64,000 nt of DNA from Schistocephalus solidus (lineage: Eukaryota; Platyhelminthes; Cestoda; Diphyllobothriidea; Diphyllobothriidae). Positions 1 to 62,770 of the stretch are shown piece after piece. The DNA lies in contig WEDG01006427.1 in assembly GCA_017591395.1 (NCBI GenBank), positions 1 to 64,000 on the forward strand, in the 5' to 3' direction. The notes beneath the pieces are model-generated. The model was not told the origin of the DNA. It saw nothing but the letters and a program-made list of their open reading frames with translations, and did no database searches. The stretch's first letter is position 1. Every line of letters starts with the position of its first letter. Made by a program: the position numbers and the translations under genes.

Positions 1-73
1 GTGTTTCGCCGATGTTTCTGCTGCTGCGTGATGCAGCAACGAGGGGTTCGGCTCCTCAGTGTGTCCCCCAGTG
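1..73 (-). ncRNA. Hammerhead ribozyme, cut by the window edge (unit 1)
   Basis: On the minus strand the core CTGAGGA (53-59) is followed by helix II arm GCCGA (48-52), a long loop, the partner TCGGC (8-12) and GAAAC (3-7). The cleavage site and the 3' strand of helix I lie to the left of the window. The helix I 5' strand reads ACACA here rather than the CCCA of intact units, so helix I may be weakened unless the missing side compensates. Confidence 0.65.
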
Positions 74-335
74 TTCTCTATGCGGTTTCAGGTATATGGA
101 CTCCAGAGAATAATCAAGGAAATAATTTCTGAAATTATTAAGTGCAGGACATGGCAGTCAGGTGATTCGGACATGACTTTTTAGGGTCAGACCCGAAATT
201 TCAATGAACATTTGGCCAGACAATCAACCACTGTGAAATAACCACGTAATGCCCATTCTACAAACAAATAGTACTACAAGTAGTATGAATCTTATATGGC
301 AAAGACGTTTTACCTTACTTCCGACATAGATACTA

Positions 336-425
336 GATAAAAGCCCAGGCACGTGGTTCGCCGATGTTTTCTGCTGCTGTGTGACACAGCAACGAGGGTT
401 CTGGCTCCTCAGTGGGTCCACCAGC
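336..425 (-). pseudogene. Decayed hammerhead ribozyme (unit 2)
   Basis: Same position in the unit as the intact ribozyme at 1045-1133. The CTGAGGA core and the CCCA/TGGG helix I survive, but the GAAA core has become GAAC and helix II reads GCCAG against TCGGC, so one pair is lost. It is predicted inactive. Confidence 0.65.
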
Positions 426-690
426 ATTCTCTATGCGGTTTCTGGTATATGGACTCCAGAGAATAATCGGGTAAATAATTTCTGAAATTATTAATTGCAG
501 GACATGGAGTCAGATGATTCGGACATGACGTTTTAGGGTCAGACCCGAAATTTCAATGAACATTTTGGTCGAAGACAATCAACCACTGTGGAATAACCAC
601 GAAATGCCCATTCTACAAACAAGAAGTACTACAAGTAGTATGAATCTTATATGACAAAGACTTTATACCGTACTTCCGATATAGATACTA

Positions 691-779
691 GCTAAAAGCC
701 CAGACACGTGTGTCGTTGATGTTTCTGCTGCTGTGTGACACAGCAACGAGGGGCTAAGCTCCTCAGTGGGTCCCCCAGC
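691..779 (-). pseudogene. Decayed hammerhead ribozyme (unit 3)
   Basis: The CTGAGGA core, the ACGT-GTC cleavage segment and the CCCA/TGGG helix I are kept, but GAAA has become GACA and helix II (GCTTA against TCAAC) no longer pairs well. It is predicted inactive. Confidence 0.6.
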
Positions 780-1044
780 GTTCTCTATGCGGTTTCTGGT
801 ATATGGACTCCAGAGAATAATTGGGTTTATAATTTCTGAAACTATTAAATGCAGGATATGGCGTCAGGTGATTTGGACATGACTTTTTAGGGTCAGACCC
901 GAAATTTCAATGAACATTTGGGTCGAAGACAATCAACCACTGTGGAATAACCACGTAACGCTCATTCTACAAACAAGTAGAACTACAAGCATTATGAATC
1001 TTATATGGCAAAGACCTTATACCGTAGTTCTGACATAGATACTA

Positions 1045-1133
1045 GCTAAAAGCCCAGACACGTGTTTCGCCGATGTTTCTGCTGCTGTGTGACACAGCAA
1101 CGAGAGGTTCGGCTCCTCAGTGGGTCCCGCAGC
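1045..1133 (-). ncRNA. Intact type I hammerhead ribozyme (unit 4)
   Basis: Read on the minus strand: helix I 5' strand CCCA (1121-1124); core CTGAGGA (1114-1120), which fits C3-U4-G5-A6-N7-G8-A9; helix II arm GCCGA (1109-1113) pairing perfectly with TCGGC (1069-1073) and including the conserved G10.1-C11.1 pair; core GAAA plus C (1064-1068); a minimal helix III, ACGT (1060-1063); cleavage triplet GTC (1057-1059); and helix I 3' strand TGGG (1053-1056). An outer AGC/GCT pairing (1045-1047 with 1131-1133), separated by a U-rich strand facing a G-rich strand, may extend helix I. The 35-nt loop II holds a 7-bp hairpin, TGCTGTG/CACAGCA. Helix I is the open end, so this is type I. Cleavage of a tandem transcript would release a unit of about 354 nt. 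Activity is predicted, not shown. Confidence 0.86.
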
Positions 1134-1398
1134 GTTCTCTATGCGGTTTCTGGCATATGGACTCCGGAGAATAATCGGGTTAATAATTTCTGAAATTATT
1201 AAGTGCTGGACATGGAGTCAGGTGATTTAGACTTGACTTTTTAGGGTCACACCCGAAATTTCAATGAACACTTGGGTCGAAGACAATCAACCACTGTAGA
1301 ATAACCACGTAATACCCATTCTACAAACAAGTAGTACTACAAGTAGTATGAATCTTATATGGCAAAGACGTTATACCGTACTTCAAACAGAGATACAA

Positions 1399-1485
1399 GC
1401 TAAATCTCGGACACCTGTTTCATCGATGTTTCTTCTGCTGTGTGACACAGCAACGAGGGTTCGGCTCCTCAGTGTGTCCCCCAGC
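1399..1485 (-). pseudogene. Decayed hammerhead ribozyme (unit 5)
   Basis: CTGAGGA (1466-1472) and GAAAC followed by a GTC triplet are present. Helix II (GCCGA against TCGAT) has lost pairs and helix I (ACACA against CCGAG) does not pair. It is predicted inactive. Confidence 0.6.
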
Positions 1486-1571
1486 GTTCTCTATGCGGTT
1501 TCTGGTATATAGACTCCAGAGAATAATCGGGTTGATAATTTCTGAAATTATCAAGTGCAGGAGATGGACTT

Positions 1572-5639: not shown

Positions 5640-5965
5640 TATGAACAAAGACAGTCGCCTACAGTTAAAAAACAAATTAATACCCATTTTACAAACAAAG
5701 TGTCCTGTAAGTAGTGTACTGTTCATATTGAAAAGTTTTATACGGTATTCATGGCCTGTGTACTAACTGAAAGCTAAGGCGCAGGTTTCGACGATGTTCC
5801 TATAGGTGTGAGCGGTTCAGGTCATCGGTAGGTCCTCAGCGTTCTTGATGTGGTCTCCAGTTAATGCAATCTTCCGCACAAGCTAGGTGACAATTTCAGA
5901 AATGATTAAGCGAAAGACAGAGTTACATGTCTCTGACATGACTTTAGGCCTATGCAGACTGGAAT
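5640..5965. repeat. Diverged copy of the 354-bp satellite unit
   Basis: Matches the unit in order: CCCATTTTACAAACAA, TAGTGTACTG, TTATACGGTATTC, TACTAACTGAAAGC, a degenerate ribozyme region, TCCTCAGCGTTCT and TGACAATTTCAGAAATGATT. The ribozyme core is destroyed. It is a single, old copy. Confidence 0.65.
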
Positions 5966-9311: not shown

Positions 9312-10283
<972 letters not shown>

Positions 10284-10640
10284 TATGAATATCAGACCAA
10301 CCCTCAGTTTTCGGCTCAAAGCAGACAATACCGGTACCAGCACGTGCACATCCAGCTCTTTCGTGGTTGGATTGAAAATTTAGTACATGAGAGAGTTGTT
10401 TCCACCTTTCACTAAAAGTACATGGAGAGTATCCTAAACTGTTTGGCAATCAGAATTCCAGGAGTGTTCTAGTCACAATTTGAGTATAAAAATGTTTGAA
10501 ATTGGGTTACTTTTTTTCAAGTTGCTGTCAAATTATCGCGCCAATAGTAATGGAAGTAGCATACTGGGTAGGCACAGTAAGAATAATACTATGATTATCA
10601 CTAAAAGTAGTAGTAGTGGGAGTAGTAGTAGTAGTAGTAT

Positions 10641-10733
<93 letters not shown>

Positions 10734-10787
10734 AAGTAGTAGTAGACAGTAGTAGTAGTGAGTAGTGAGTAGTAGTAGTAGTAGTAG

Positions 10788-10867
<80 letters not shown>

Positions 10868-10877
10868 TAGTAGTAGT

Positions 10878-10934
<57 letters not shown>

Positions 10935-16945: not shown

Positions 16946-17860
16946 GCAGGCTATGCGACAACCAGGCTGTGGTACGTGCGGTGCGAAGGTGTTCTTCAGA
17001 GGACGTCAAACTCACTGCTACAAACCGAAATATAAGGCAGACTGGACTAGACACAGTCTTGACTGATTTATTCAGCATGCTTAAAAGAAGCCAACTATTG
17101 TGAGGTGCTTGAACGCTCACCTTGGAGTACTTAAATAGGGGTATAACTCATCATTCCGCGAATTCAGCATGCCCCAAGGGATATAGACTAATCGCCATGT
17201 GACTTGCGTTGAGACTAAACACCAACTAAAGTCGTCGTTGGCGTTTGCAGTCATTTTGAGCATTCCGGCATGGTATATTTTATACCATACGAACAAACCA
17301 CAAATTTGTAAATGTCTTTTCAAGTAGAACGGTTTACTTAGGTAAGGTTGCAATGTTTATTATCGTGCAGCATAAACCCACGATATTTCAAGTACGACAG
17401 GGTGCCGGCTTTTGAATGACCTTCTTTGCTGATGCCACCAAAATCACATTCAACACTGTGAATACCTAAGTATTATGACTTTTTCCAGTTATTTTTTTAA
17501 ACCCTTACATGTTCAAATCTATTTTGCAGAAAACAAGCACAAAAACTCCTGTACGAACTGGAGAAAAAAATGTATGTCTTCTTGGAATTTGAGAGTAAAA
17601 AAAAGGGTATACTTAGTATAAGATGTTGCACATATGGAGTTGGATATGGATTCACCTGACAATTGTGCGATCCGTATATGACCCCGGCTTAGTTACGTAG
17701 AGAAGTGCATGATTTTCAGCCAAGATAAATACGTATGAACTAATGTGAAAACCCTAAACGCTAGTACAAATATAGGCCGAGTTAAACATTTGTCTAAACA
17801 TTGTGATGCTTTTAAAACCTAAAAGCACCATTTCTAAGCTGATGAATATTAACGGCAAAG
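16946..17860. other. No gene recognised
   Basis: Nothing beyond short open frames. Confidence 0.45.
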
Positions 17861-18235
17861 ACAAGGGAGACTTGGGTGACCATTTCTGACTTCTTATCCA
17901 TCATCAACCAGTCATACCAACCCCAGGTGATGCGTGAAATCGTGGCTCAATGGTTAGAGCGTTAGACTTCTGATCAAGGGGTCACGGGTTCGATTCTTGG
18001 GTGGTGCATCACCTGGGGTTGGTTATAACTGGCTGATGACGGTTAATAAGCCAGAAATGGTCATTCTAGTCTCCCTTGTCTTTGCCGGCACTATTCGTCT
18101 GCCTATTCCCATACTAGCCGCTGGGCGGCTGCTGGTGGTGCTCGACAGTGAACCTCAAGGCAGAGTGGAACGAGTGCGTTCCGTTAGCGATCATAAACGA
18201 ATGCAAGCATCCTTTCTTTTTGTATAGAATTTTAA
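17861..18235 (+). repeat. tRNA-headed SINE with an inverted 5' fragment
   Basis: Head: GTGGCTCAATGGTTAGAGCG (A box, about 17942-17961), an anticodon-like loop CTTCTGA, and B box GGGTTCGATTC (about 17987-17997). The anticodon could be UCU (Arg), but the T-arm does not close, so it is a SINE head rather than a tRNA gene. The body runs to about 18235. The first 70 bp of the body (18006-18080) are also present in reverse at 17861-17933, so the tRNA-like head sits in the loop of an inverted repeat. Confidence 0.75.
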
Positions 18236-24383: not shown

Positions 24384-24762
24384 TATATGGCACAGGTATT
24401 ATACCGTACTTCCGACATAGGTACTAGCTAAAAGCCCAGACACGTGTTTCGCCGATGTTTCTGCTGCTGCGTGACGCAGCAACGAGAGTTCGGCTCCTCA
24501 GTGGGTCCCCCAGCGTTCTCTATGTGGTTTCTGGTATATGGACTCCAGAGAATAATCAAGGAAATAATTTCTGAAATTATTAAGTGCAGGACATGGAGTC
24601 AGATGATTCGGACATGACTTTTTAGGGTCAGACCCGAAATTTCAATGAACATTTGGGTCGAAGACAATCAACCACTGTGGAATAACCACGTAATGCCCAT
24701 TCTACAAACAAGTAGTACTACAAGTAGTATGAATCTTATATGGCACAGGTATTATACCGTAT
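24384..24762 (-). repeat. Single full unit of the 354-bp ribozyme satellite
   Basis: One complete unit that begins and ends with the same variant segment (TATGGCACAGGTATTATACCG at 24387 and again at 24740), which differs from the TATGGCAAAGACGTTATACCG of the array at 1-1571. It is therefore slightly more than one unit, with a terminal duplication of about 25 bp, and an (AT)n tract follows. It carries an intact ribozyme (24427-24514). Confidence 0.9.
24427..24514 (-). ncRNA. Intact type I hammerhead ribozyme
   Basis: Minus strand: CCCA (24502-24505), CTGAGGA (24495-24501), GCCGA (24490-24494), loop, TCGGC (24451-24455), GAAAC (24446-24450), ACGT (24442-24445), GTC (24439-24441), TGGG (24435-24438), with the outer helix I pair AGC/GCT (24427-24429 with 24512-24514). 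The loop II hairpin is TGCTGCG/CGCAGCA, whereas the copy at 1045-1133 has TGCTGTG/CACAGCA. One base pair has changed on both sides, which supports a real RNA structure. Confidence 0.86.
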
Positions 24763-25214: not shown

Positions 25215-25765
25215 CATATATGGCAAAGATGGTATACCGTACTCCCGACAAAGGTAATAGCTCAAAGCCCGGACGCGTTATACGCTGATGTTTCTGCAGC
25301 TGCATAATGCAGCAGCGGGGTTCCTGGCTCCTCAGTGGTCCTTCAGTGTTCTCGCTGCGGTTTCTGGTATATGAACTTCAGAAAATAATCAAGGAAAGAA
25401 TTTCTGAAATTAGTATGTGAAGGGCATGGAATCAGGTGATCCGGATAGGACTTATTAGGGTCACACCCGAAATTTAAATGGACATTTGGCTCGAAGACAA
25501 TCAACCACTATGGAATAATCGCATAATGTCCATTCTACAAACAAATAGTATGTAATGTATATGGCAAAGCTGGTGTACCATACTCCCGACATAGGTACGA
25601 GCTAAAAGCCCAGACACGTGTTTTACCAATGTTTCTGCTGCAGCATGACGCATCAACGAGGGCTTCGGCTCCTCAGTGCGTCCCGCAGCGTTCTCTATGT
25701 TTTTTGGGAAACGGATTGAAGAGAATAATCGGGGAAATTATTTATGAAATTATTTTCCCGAAATA
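25215..25765 (-). repeat. Two diverged, tandem units of the 354-bp satellite
   Basis: Unit starts at about 25219 and 25559, a spacing of about 340 bp; the second is truncated at about 25765. Both ribozymes are decayed: the first has lost GAAA (it reads TAAC), and the second reads GTAAAAC with helix II unpaired, although CTGAGGA and the ACGT-GTC-TGGG segment survive in the second. Confidence 0.85.
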
Positions 25766-26279
25766 TATATATATACATATATATTGAAACTATATACGTT
25801 CTGGGAGTAAGTTACTGCACTTTATTCGGCAAATTTTCAACACCAGTTGCCTAGGTCATCGACAAACGTAGATTAAATGAGCAAAAGGGCTTGCTTTTTA
25901 AGCGTGCTTCTAAGTGTATTCAAGAATATCAACTGACGTTAAGGATGCGAAGCTACTTGCCCCGAATACGAGGCTTATTTTCGCCCGATAGAAAATGCAT
26001 GGTTGACCTCTGTCCTTTTAAGAAATGTCTAGAGCCTTTCGAGGACATTCGCTCGGTGGCGTTGTATTAGTCCGTATTAATAGTTGTATACCACGTAAAA
26101 AATATTGATGAGAAATTAGTGAAACGGCAGCCCACCGAAACAGGTTGATAGCATTGGTGCCTATTGGCCAAAAAATCCAAACATGTATGGACTATCGAAC
26201 GCGCTTTAAAAAGTTGGTATAGCTAGTTTATATTGTCCCCTCAATAAGATACGGGGCAGGAGCCGACGTACTACGGGTG
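25766..26279. other. No gene recognised
   Basis: A short (AT)n-like tract at 25762-25788, otherwise nothing recognised. Confidence 0.45.
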
Positions 26280-37878: not shown

Positions 37879-37908
37879 GCAATATATATATATATATATA
37901 TATACATA
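37879..37908. repeat. (AT)n microsatellite
   Basis: TA dinucleotides directly before the ribozyme array. Confidence 0.95.
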
Positions 37909-37918
37909 TACACTGCAC

Positions 37919-37978
37919 AAGGCATATGATGTACTGATGATCGGTAATGACCGTGAAACAGCTGTCTGCGTCTTGCCT
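37919..37978 (+). ncRNA. Hammerhead ribozyme (unit 1), all core elements present
   Basis: Helix I outer AGGCA and TGCCT; inner GATGTA (37928-37933) pairing with TGCGTC (37967-37972) through two G-U pairs; core CTGATGA (37934-37940); helix II CGGT (37942-37945) with ACCG (37950-37953); GAAAC (37955-37959); minimal helix III in AGCT; cleavage triplet GTC (37964-37966). A U faces a U at positions 10.1/11.1, where most hammerheads have G-C; this may lower activity. Type I topology. Confidence 0.78.
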
Positions 37979-38096
37979 GTTGCACTCTTAGCAACATATT
38001 TGTGCTATATATATATATATATATACACAAATATGTTTAAGCTAAGAGTGCAACAGGCAAGACGCAGACTGTTTCACGGTCATTACTGATCATCAG
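37934..38096. repeat. Inverted repeat of the ribozyme region around an AT tract
   Basis: Arms of about 73 bp (37934-38006 and 38024-38096), nearly identical, separated by TA dinucleotides. The right arm carries a second ribozyme copy on the minus strand with CTGATGA (38090-38096) and GAAAC (38071-38075). A 3-bp loss has removed its cleavage triplet context, and there is no helix I partner upstream, so that copy is inactive. Confidence 0.85.
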
Positions 38097-38173
38097 AATG
38101 GGATTGCGTGAGATCCTAACTACATCAGTGAGTGTCATGCGCTTGTTTGACTTGTGTATATACTTCACTGCAC

Positions 38174-38233
38174 AAGGCATATGACGTACTGGTGATCGGT
38201 AACAACCGGAAAACAGCTGTCTACGTCTTGCCT
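38174..38233 (+). pseudogene. Hammerhead ribozyme (unit 2) with core mutations
   Basis: Helix I is perfect (GACGTA with TACGTC, outer AGGCA with TGCCT) and helix II CGGT/ACCG is kept, but the core reads CTGGTGA (A6 to G) and the GAAAC region reads GGAAAAC. It is predicted inactive. Confidence 0.7.
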
Positions 38234-38422
38234 GTTGCATCTTTAGCAACATACCTGTGCTTTATATGTGGCATGTGTCCTATGACACATCGTTCGTTTA
38301 TCGCCAGTGGCTAGCTGGCGCGTGGGCGGACGGGCAGGCAGACACAATGGGAGCGAGTGAGATCTTAACTATATCAGGGAGTTTCATGCGCTTGTTTGAA
38401 TTGTGTATATATCTCACTGCAC

Positions 38423-38482
38423 AAGGCATATGACGTACTGATGATCGGTAACAACCGTGAAACAGCTGTCTACGTCGTTCCT
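38423..38482 (+). ncRNA. Hammerhead ribozyme (unit 3), best-preserved copy
   Basis: GACGTA (38432-38437), CTGATGA (38438-38444), CGGT/ACCG helix II with an AACA loop, GAAAC (38459-38463), AGCT, GTC (38468-38470), TACGTC (38471-38476). The inner helix I is a perfect 6-bp duplex. The outer helix is weaker than in unit 2 because the 3' side reads GTTCCT. Compared with unit 1, the two helix I differences (C-G to U-G, U-A to U-G) keep pairing. Confidence 0.82.
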
Positions 38483-38654
38483 GTTCAACCTTTAGCAACA
38501 TACCTGTGCATTCTATGTGGCATGTGTCCTATGACACAAGATTCGTTTATCGCCAGTGGCTGGTTGGCAGGCGGATAGAATGGGATCGAGTGATATCCGA
38601 ACCACATCAGTGGGTGTCATGCGCTTGTTTGACTTGTATCTAAATATATATATA

Positions 38655-47564: not shown

Positions 47565-47875
47565 GATCATGGTTGATGGGATCCTCGCTTGTCGGTCCGT
47601 GCTCGAGTCGTTAAGTGTCGGGGTTTCATCACCGCTGTGGATCTTTAGCTGTGGATCTGTGGATCTTTAGCCTTCCTCGCTTGTCGGTCTGTGGATCTTT
47701 AGCTTTGGATCTTTAGCTGTGGATCTTTGGATCTTTAGCCTTCCTCGCTTGTCAGTCTGTGGATCTGTGGATCTTTAGCTGTGGATCTTTAGCCTTCCTC
47801 GCTTGTCGGTCCGTGCTCGAGTCGTTAAGTGTCGTGGTTTCATCACCGCTGTGGATCTTTAGCGTGACGATTACT
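47565..47875. repeat. Variable minisatellite with GTGGATCTTTAGC unit
   Basis: A 13-bp unit GTGGATCTTTAGC and the variant GTGGATCT are interspersed with a longer unit CTTCCTCGCTTGTCGGTC. The outer edges both contain GTGCTCGAGTCGTTAAGTGTC, so the block also has a higher-order duplication of about 235 bp. Confidence 0.9.
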
Positions 47876-59584: not shown

Positions 59585-60475
59585 TGGTTCATCTCCGGTC
59601 TTCTTGACTGTGTCGTGAGACCGGGCTAGGTGGGGGAGGAGAAGATGGTGCGGTAACGTTAAGCGCCGCGGTTGGAAGGTTGCCAACTGACAATTGCACT
59701 CAGACCTCGCGGTTAGTCCAATGTGTGTTGTGTGGAGTGGCTGACTGGTGGTCTGAGAGTCAGGCTGCGATGGCTCCTTCTTAACGTCACCTCTGGCTAT
59801 CTCACACATGTGAGATGTAAGCCGTTCAACCCCCTGCCGTGTGAAATCCTGGTGCTTGTGTTTGGGGGGCCAGGTCGTGTATGTAGTACACGTAGACGAG
59901 GTCACCAGCAGCTGCGCCCACTTCCGCATCAGACAACTGACCGGCTCGGACAGTGGTTTGACTTTGGGGGTGGGGGAGAGAGTGAGGTCGACAGCTCAGC
60001 GCATTTTCCTCACTATAAACAATCTGACGCGCTTGAATCTATCACGGTGCGCTAAAAGCCGTGGCTTGGAAGGTTGCCAACTGACGGGATAACTCGGACC
60101 GCGTGGTCAGCCCAATGTGTGTTTTGTGTGGAATGGCTGACTGGCGGACTGAGAGTCTGGCTGCAATGGCTTCATCTTAATGTGGCCTTTATGGCACTTC
60201 CACTCTGTGGGATCCGAGCCAGGTGTGGTGGTATGCCCAGGGGGTGGCTCCGACCGCGCCAGCCACCTGCGTCCTCTCCCGCCTCTGGTCTTCTTGACTC
60301 TGTCATGACACCGGGTTCAGGGGGGAGGAGGAGAGAGTGCGGTAGCTGCAGCGCAAGGCTACTATCACTTAAAACTAATTCACGCACAAGTCACCGTCCA
60401 TGCACCACCCTTCCGTGGAGCATACGGTGGACATCATCGAAATCGACGGTCGAACTATCATGTTATGGTTAGTGT
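59585..60475 (+). repeat. Tandem copies of GC-rich dispersed repeat (family R), period about 392 bp
   Basis: GGTTGGAAGGTTGCCAACTG at about 59668 recurs as GCTTGGAAGGTTGCCAACTG at about 60064, and CAATGTGTGTTGTGTGGAGT recurs as CAATGTGTGTTTTGTGTGG. Parts of a third copy lie at 59585-59660 (GGTCTTCTTGACTGTGTCG). Open frames of 90-132 codons across it occur in several frames and coincide with the repeat, so I do not call genes. Confidence 0.75.
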
Positions 60476-62399: not shown

Positions 62400-62770
62400 T
62401 TCTTGAGATAGGTCACGTACTACAAGCCAAGACACGTGTTTTCTCGGATGTTTCTGCTGCAGCTGCATGACGTAGCAACGGGATTTTCGGCTCCTCAAAG
62501 GGATCCCTAGCGTTATCTATGCGGTTTCTGGTATATGAACTCCAGATAACAATAAACGTAATAATTTCTGAAAGTATCAATTGCAGGACATGTAGTTATA
62601 TGACAGGGACATTAAGTTTTTAGAGCCAGACTCGAAATTACGATGAAAATTTGAGTCGAAGACAATCAGCTACTGTGGAATACCCACCTAATGCCTATTC
62701 AATAAAGAAGTAGCATTACAAGGAGCATGAATTTTATATGGTTAAGATGCTATACCGTACATTTATATAA
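62400..62770 (-). repeat. Diverged full-length 354-bp satellite unit
   Basis: Follows the unit order from ACACGTGTTTTC through GGCTCCTCAAAGGG, GCGGTTTCTGGTATATG, TAATAATTTCTGAAAGTATC, AAGACAATCAGC to GCTATACCGTAC. The ribozyme is decayed: the core reads TTGAGGA and the GAAA region reads GAAAAC with helix II mispaired, although ACGT-GTC is kept. Confidence 0.8.

Follow-up and report, generated by a model that had tools for sequence, protein, structure and literature searches.

Two probable families of hammerhead-bearing retrozymes in the genome of the tapeworm Schistocephalus solidus

Hammerhead satellites and animal retrozymes are already known, and platyhelminths are mentioned in general terms in PMC7229834. 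The animal non-LTR retrozymes of Acropora, Mytilus and axolotl carry type I hammerheads in tandemly repeated units that measure 150-450 bp and have a GC content below 50% (PMC7229834), and the same source proposes LINE or Penelope-like enzymes for their re-entry into DNA, with no insertion experiments in the excerpts used here. Metazoan retrozymes are further characterised by the absence of LTRs and a PBS, by self-paired circular RNA in tissue and, when target-site duplications occur, by a length of these above 4 bp. Cleavage by one axolotl hammerhead, HHR_Amex2, was better in a dimeric construct (PMC7229834). The Sm-alpha hammerhead satellite of Schistosoma mansoni, a flatworm, is named in PMC6155905. 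Penelope-like elements and Terminons contain minimal type I hammerheads, arranged in tandem inside protein-coding elements (PMC7761336, PMC11167929); for a Penelope-like enzyme, initiation of reverse transcription at an internal position of its RNA, a preference for AT-rich DNA and extension on both strands are reported (PMC11167929). No tapeworm hammerhead was found among the matches listed in the open-access literature, which is compatible with the suggestion in the initial annotation that the repeat considered here may be an undescribed family.

The DNA analysed is a stretch of 64,000 nt from S. solidus (assembly GCA_017591395.1, contig WEDG01006427.1, positions 1 to 64,000; hereafter the window), and it holds two unrelated repeats with hammerhead motifs, termed family 1 and family 2. 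Judged from their sequences, both are very likely non-autonomous hammerhead-bearing retroelements of the animal (non-LTR) retrozyme kind that spread through RNA-to-DNA copying, and they probably represent two new retrozyme families. Like the animal retrozymes of PMC7229834, both combine a type I hammerhead with tandem units within the 150-450 bp range (353 and 233 bp) and a GC content below 50%, and both are dispersed and present in multiple copies, with mobility suggested by the ends of their arrays. A two-pair helix III with a tetraloop is also held in common with those retrozymes, and family 2 has the same U-U at the base of helix II as axolotl HHR_Amex2 (PMC7229834). Family 1 departs from the animal retrozymes at helix II, which is long and composite where theirs has a short loop, and at helix I, whose 11-12 pairs are interrupted by a bulge of one base. 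The 3' junctions focused on (TA)n and the neighbour pairs in 5'-to-5' orientation reported below are not described in the excerpts of PMC7229834 on which this comparison is based.

Newt and salamander satellite hammerheads (PMC6155905, PMC7229834) are likewise satellite-borne with a short helix III able to dimerise, although their helix III is weaker, with a single pair and a palindromic tetraloop in HHR_Amex1 (PMC7229834). The likeness to Sm-alpha, which is also a flatworm satellite with a type I hammerhead, is drawn from its description. The Penelope-like and Terminon hammerheads, as characterised in the excerpted sources, are without helix III or loop contacts, whereas family 1 has a normal helix III, no coding was seen in it, and it does not have the form of a helix III-less motif within a coding element's pLTR. 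No relatives came out of pattern scans that covered viral contigs and prokaryote genomes.

Family 1 occurs in the window as a tandem array at its left edge, with the following features (all on the minus strand, which is the hammerhead sense):
1-1568, minus strand: tandem array with a 354-bp unit, 4.4 copies and 90% matches, beginning at the left edge of the window
335-428, minus strand: decayed hammerhead copy (alignment, R1 model)
690-782, minus strand: hammerhead copy in which helix II and the 3' core have decayed (alignment)
1044-1136, minus strand: extended type I hammerhead region, intact, with outer helix I GCTGCGGG/CTTTTAGC
1120-1114, minus strand: 5' catalytic core CTGAGGA, N7 = G
1069-1113, minus strand: helix II, GCCGA (1113-1109) with TCGGC (1073-1069), the 35-nt insert forming a second hairpin across an internal loop
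1108-1074, minus strand: the 35-nt 'loop II'
1068-1057, minus strand: GAAACACGTGTC, comprising the 3' core, two-pair helix III, self-complementary ACGT loop and GTC
1056-1053 and 1124-1121, minus strand: inner strands of helix I, TGGG and CCCA
1398-1488, minus strand: decayed hammerhead copy (alignment, R1 model)

The initial annotation had placed a hammerhead on the minus strand of this satellite, and a complete type I motif is indeed present at 1044-1136, with every element that it named in its place. Read on the minus strand, the order is GGGACCCA CTGAGGA GCCGA [35 nt] TCGGC GAAAC ACGT GTC TGGGCTTTT; the core CUGANGA...GAAA...UH is in order, helix I is open-ended, and there are three helices, including the G10.1-C11.1 pair. 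The cleavage bond is expected from the motif to lie between 1057 and 1056 on the minus strand. The annotated unit length of 354 bp holds for the period of the window array, while the genome consensus unit is 353 bp. Helix I was described as CCCA/TGGG; this pairing is present but extends further outward, continuing in folding as GCTGGGGG/CTTTTAGC beyond a single bulged A, for a total of 11 pairs in the 1044-1136 copy (which has one extra C-U mismatch) and 12 in the 24426-24517 copy and the consensus. Similarly, the loop II of about 35 nt with its own hairpin is 35 nt long, and it folds as a second stem, GTTGCTGCG/CGCAGCAGC, connected to helix II through an internal loop. The 3' strand of this internal loop, AAACA, is invariant in 9/9 aligned window copies (one with an extra A). 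The helix I bulge lies 4 pairs from the core and the helix II internal loop 5 pairs, and in the modelled fold the bulged A and the AAACA internal loop are a possible loop I-loop II tertiary contact. A hammerhead with this extended helix II and bulged helix I would be a new structural variant of the type I form.

Helix III of family 1 consists of AC/GT closed by the loop ACGT. It had been called minimal, a label that does not hold, as it resembles the Rfam consensus (two pairs and a self-complementary tetraloop) and shows no unusual smallness. The Sm-alpha hammerhead also has a two-pair helix III with a self-complementary loop. Because ACACGTGT is self-complementary, a pair of units could form a common helix III of 8 pairs. 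Variation in helices I-III is mostly decay; one pair of the distal hairpin, scored over 45 distinct genome rows, is C-G in 28, U-A in 9, U-G in 7 and unpaired in 1. In the three sequences for which both folds were computed, the hammerhead-constrained fold lay 1.8 kcal/mol above the unconstrained minimum. Folding of the predicted circle gave z-scores of -2.3 to -2.9 for three units, compared to -1.7 to -2.2 for the antisense, values that are predictions only.

A covariance-model check had been proposed in the initial annotation. The Rfam Hammerhead_1 model (RF00163) aligned end to end with the 1044-1136 copy (model positions 1-45 of 45), but the score of 22.8 bits (E 0.014 across 4227 families) is below the gathering cut-off of 34 bits; the dispersed copy at 24433-24507 likewise scored 22.8 bits, so both family 1 hammerheads fall under the cut-off. 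Neither was listed in Rfam scans of the whole window, including one at the gathering cut-off, and a genome-wide Hammerhead_1 search returned zero matches but was uninformative, since 14 controls were equally silent. Helix II of family 1 is unlike that of the Rfam hammerhead consensus, which has a 6-nt loop. With the R1 model, of which it is itself a part, the 1044-1136 copy scored 114.5 bits. As the Rfam cut-off passes over intact, multi-copy motifs with a long helix II or, as in family 2, a U-U pair, such elements may be under-counted.

The sub-threshold Rfam score is one of two points in favour of reading the family 1 motif as a chance resemblance within an unrelated satellite; the other is that the descriptor used for counting (exact core, helix II of at least 4 pairs, helix III of at least 2 and helix I of at least 4) was composed after the motif had been seen. 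This descriptor had 11 matches in 120 Mb of order-2 Markov sequence modelled on the window (single strand), and the number expected in the window on both strands is approximately 0.012, against two real matches, themselves mutual homologues. In no simulated match of the 11 did a 5-pair helix II occur together with both a short (8-nt) helix III segment and GTC. In addition, the outer helices close around the core, and the same window holds a second hammerhead repeat, for which the corresponding descriptor gave 0 matches in 200 Mb of simulated sequence and 2 in the window. Against this evidence a chance origin is extremely improbable, in line with the initial annotation, which had considered chance unlikely.

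Further copies of family 1 are dispersed along the window:
5648-5945, minus strand: distant relative (65%), with a degenerate hammerhead region at 5765-5843 (24 bits with R1)
24384-24761, minus strand: dispersed element of one 353-bp unit plus a 25-bp terminal direct repeat, with (TA)n on the sense 5' side
25217-25754, minus strand: dispersed element of about 1.5 units, both hammerheads decayed, with (TA)n near the sense 5' side
62420-62760, minus strand: dispersed single unit, diverged (78%)

The element at 24384-24761 amounts to 1.07 units and contains an intact hammerhead (24426-24517); its sense 3' end, GCCATATA, is common to the element at 25217-25754. The distant relative of family 1 at 5648-5945 is perhaps a third subfamily. 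Two of the eight window copies uncut by the window edge pass the descriptor (1044-1136 and 24426-24517; the alignment had 9 rows). At 25725-25775, the flank at the sense 5' end of 25217-25754 extends the palindrome of the unit (TCGGGAAAATAATTTCATAAATAATTTCCCCGA), resembling the snap-back of a cDNA end.

A search of the 603.7-Mb host assembly with family 1 gave 1419 first-look candidates, 40 scored, and 142 matches, and 37 loci, a sample biased to close copies, were fetched. These contained 159 complete hammerhead regions, of which 119 were intact (a share inflated by the fetched loci being close matches) and 53 identical in sequence. N7 was G in 151/159 regions; the loop could be parsed in 133 of them and was ACGT in 132. 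When the copies are aligned, their consensus forms a perfect hammerhead in a 353-bp unit with 44.2% GC. Copies are found as pieces and as arrays whose length ranges from about 1 unit to over 9; an arrangement as single units with ends of about 50 bp was considered and rejected, given the tandem arrays in the fetched loci.

The family 2 repeat, which the initial annotation had missed, has these features in the window:
37899-38645, plus strand: family 2 repeat with a 249-bp unit, flanked by (TA)n tracts and including a partial copy in inverse orientation (38019-38096)
37928-37972, plus strand: family 2 hammerhead, GATGTA-CTGATGA-TCGGTAATGACCGT-GAAACAGCTGTC-TGCGTC, with U-U at the base of helix II
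38432-38476, plus strand: family 2 hammerhead, GACGTA-CTGATGA-TCGGTAACAACCGT-GAAACAGCTGTC-TACGTC

Its commonest unit in the genome is 233 bp with 45.5% GC. The genome search for family 2 gave 1604 first-look candidates, 40 scored, and 183 matches, again a sample biased to close copies; 39 of 49 motifs were intact in 20 loci on 20 contigs, a count made with a pattern that already demands part of the core. The core CUGANGA...GAAA...UH is present, and 46 of the 49 motifs have U-U at the base of helix II (10.1-11.1) in place of the G10.1-C11.1 pair. Family 2 was not reported in Rfam scans of the window or of two decayed family 2 loci. Rfam miRNA matches at 37.9-38.1 kb resemble (TA)n hairpins and were set aside.

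In neither family was there significant excess conservation of the hammerhead positions over the rest of the unit when the hammerhead mask was compared with shifted masks. As many units are left unchanged by 56/353, 129/353 and 35/233 masks as by the hammerhead mask, and 22, 183 and 27 masks show an equally low rate; the family 2 set in this test included locus L056, which overlaps L060, and its units were cut to 28 distinct ones. By simple averages, divergence is 1.9% at hammerhead positions versus 3.8%, a difference for which the selection test was nonetheless not significant.

The ends of the arrays differ by direction. Ends were counted in hammerhead-strand orientation from flank letters only, on both sides, for a total of 55 3' ends and 56 5' ends; L056-L059, L061-L064, L067, L068 and L076 were dropped. 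L056 and L060 are one array seen twice, and L065 and L067 are near-duplicates. Among the 3' ends of family 1, 9/24 follow GCCATATA and 6/24 follow ACCCGAT; in a second sample the corresponding numbers are 1/6 and 2/6, with two more at CCTTGAT(AT)n, an equivalent place. In family 2, 12/25 of the 3' ends are at phases 172-173 (GTATATAT). Overall, 30/55 of the 3' ends are at these three fixed sites and 25/55 elsewhere, and none of the listed 3' ends is at the cleavage phase. The 5' ends are scattered, the commonest phase accounting for 2/26 in family 1, 1/5 in the second sample and 2/25 in family 2. A (TA)5 or longer tract was found within the 22-nt flank of 27/55 3' ends versus 14/56 5' ends, against a background of 19 in 18932 random 22-nt windows, and 5 of the 8 (TA)5 tracts in the window abut or sit inside hammerhead elements. 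No target-site duplications outside TA sequence were seen at the array junctions. Seven clear inverted neighbour pairs were identified, all 5'-to-5'; in L018 each of the two canonical sites forms one of the outward-facing 3' ends, with (TA)n adjoining in both cases, and the inverted pair of L073, which is nested, was left out of this count. The inverted family 2 copy in the window (38019-38096) is, by eye, arranged 3'-to-3' around the (TA)n at 38006-38025.

The initial annotation had likened the satellite to a retrozyme, and the sequences support this through the perfect consensus hammerhead, the 119/159 intact motifs in the best-matching loci, the arrays and the polarity of their ends. Under the retrozyme reading, arrays would be transcribed through on the hammerhead strand, and the complete motifs suggest that the hammerheads, acting as monomers or as dimers through the self-complementary ACACGTGT of helix III, would cleave it after GTC and so release units of 353 nt. 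A host ligase would then join the units into circles, as reported for other animal retrozymes (PMC7229834). The array edges point to a foreign reverse transcriptase that would begin on the circle at a few internal sites beside (TA)n DNA (in family 1 GCCATATA or ACCCGAT, in family 2 GTATATAT) and travel a variable distance around it; on occasion the two broken ends of the target would each serve as a start. Such copying is predicted to leave 3' ends that are focused and 5' ends that are scattered. Direction-dependent ends favour reverse transcription, and their focus on the 3' side of the hammerhead strand favours that strand as the template. Since copying appears to start inside the unit and run for more than one unit across the cleavage site, the template would be circles or uncut multimers rather than linear monomers; uncut multimeric RNA would leave identical array edges, and the circular template, the ligase and the enzyme are put forward as inferences. 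The 25-bp terminal repeat of 24384-24761 is what would be expected from slightly more than one turn around a 353-nt circle. As (TA)n is self-complementary, the same RNA sites could accept either broken end of the target as primer, which may account for the 5'-to-5' pairs. The 25/55 3' ends off the three sites and the 3'-to-3' inverted copy in the window count against this reading, as do the nested L073, the lack of target-site duplications outside TA sequence, Rfam scores under the cut-off, helices that vary mostly by decay, the absence of a clear excess of conservation at hammerhead positions and the bias of the fetched copies to close matches. Insertion edges with one and the same direction relative to the hammerhead strand, seen in two families of a single genome, provide a testable account of priming site, template and polarity.

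The same repeats could instead be ordinary satellites spread by DNA alone, through unequal exchange or excised DNA circles re-entering TATA sites, with the hammerhead as a fossil or idle passenger. Long runs of matches (C1337:23027-29556 and C281:4077-14983), the lack of significantly greater conservation in the hammerhead and the 3'-to-3' arrangement of the window's inverted copy around (TA)n, judged by eye, are in keeping with such a history, and the TATA sites of the unit could recombine with (TA)n. However, opening of a DNA circle at one of its TATA sites would put both ends at the same phase, whereas the observed 3' ends are focused and the 5' ends scattered; the polarity follows the hammerhead strand in both families, the seven clear inverted pairs are 5'-to-5', and two unrelated repeats each carry intact hammerheads. 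Spread by DNA alone is therefore improbable. A different question, within the retrozyme reading, is whether the 3' (TA)n is a tail made by the reverse transcriptase and not the target, as in the simple-repeat tails of LINE-type elements, in which case one LINE could serve both families as well as a tRNA-like repeat of 302 bp. Some copies of the latter read ...TTCCATTCCA(TA)n, and (TA)n is commoner at the 3' than the 5' ends of the retrozymes, though this comparison is biased by loci chosen for holding retrozymes; moreover, the 14/56 5' ends that also touch (TA)n are unexplained by a 3' tail alone. Tail synthesis is a serious possibility that falls clearly below an even chance. Because the tRNA-like repeat, too, has (TA)n at its end, a partner of LINE type that makes (TA)n tails is as good a candidate as a Penelope-like enzyme.

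For the retrozyme reading with (TA)n as target, a Penelope-like enzyme fits the array ends in its internal start, AT preference and two-strand extension, but not in its start site, which is not homologous to the cut DNA (PMC11167929, in excerpt). When the genome was searched for GIY-YIG, 5 weak fragments emerged, which are no proof of a Penelope-like element. In the window, Pfam searches of 136 ORFs (from 148 of the 180 ORFs of at least 68 aa, minus low-complexity ones and some that lie in the repeats) found no retroelement or reverse transcriptase domain, and protein searches other than that for ORF 60056-60469 had no matches. That ORF, in an interspersed repeat, had 13 protein matches, 12 from Schistocephalus solidus and 1 from Spirometra. 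We tentatively suggest, at a little under even probability, that the RNA circles of the two unrelated families use one borrowed machinery, which would start at TATA-like circle sites on (TA)n DNA and copy both broken ends toward each other, and which the tRNA-like repeat may use too.

The tRNA-like 302-bp repeat itself (17857-18083, L034:1763-2133 and L100) is partly tandem, and its 3' end joins (TA)n beside several retrozyme insertions; 13 of 27 copies from the fetched loci and the window, several of them internal tandem copies, are without (TA)4 at the 3' end. It looks like a tRNA-derived SINE. Against the Rfam tRNA model (cut-off 29) it scored 25.5 bits in the window and 27.3 and 23.5 bits in L034, and ARAGORN found no tRNA in it. 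Other repeats in the window include a pair of long AGT trinucleotide tracts (9636-10014 and 10606-10934), separated by about 600 bp and situated in an apparent local duplication, and a short tandem array at 47635-47793 composed of CTGTGGATCTTTAG-type units with nested periods of 14, 22, 32 and 68.
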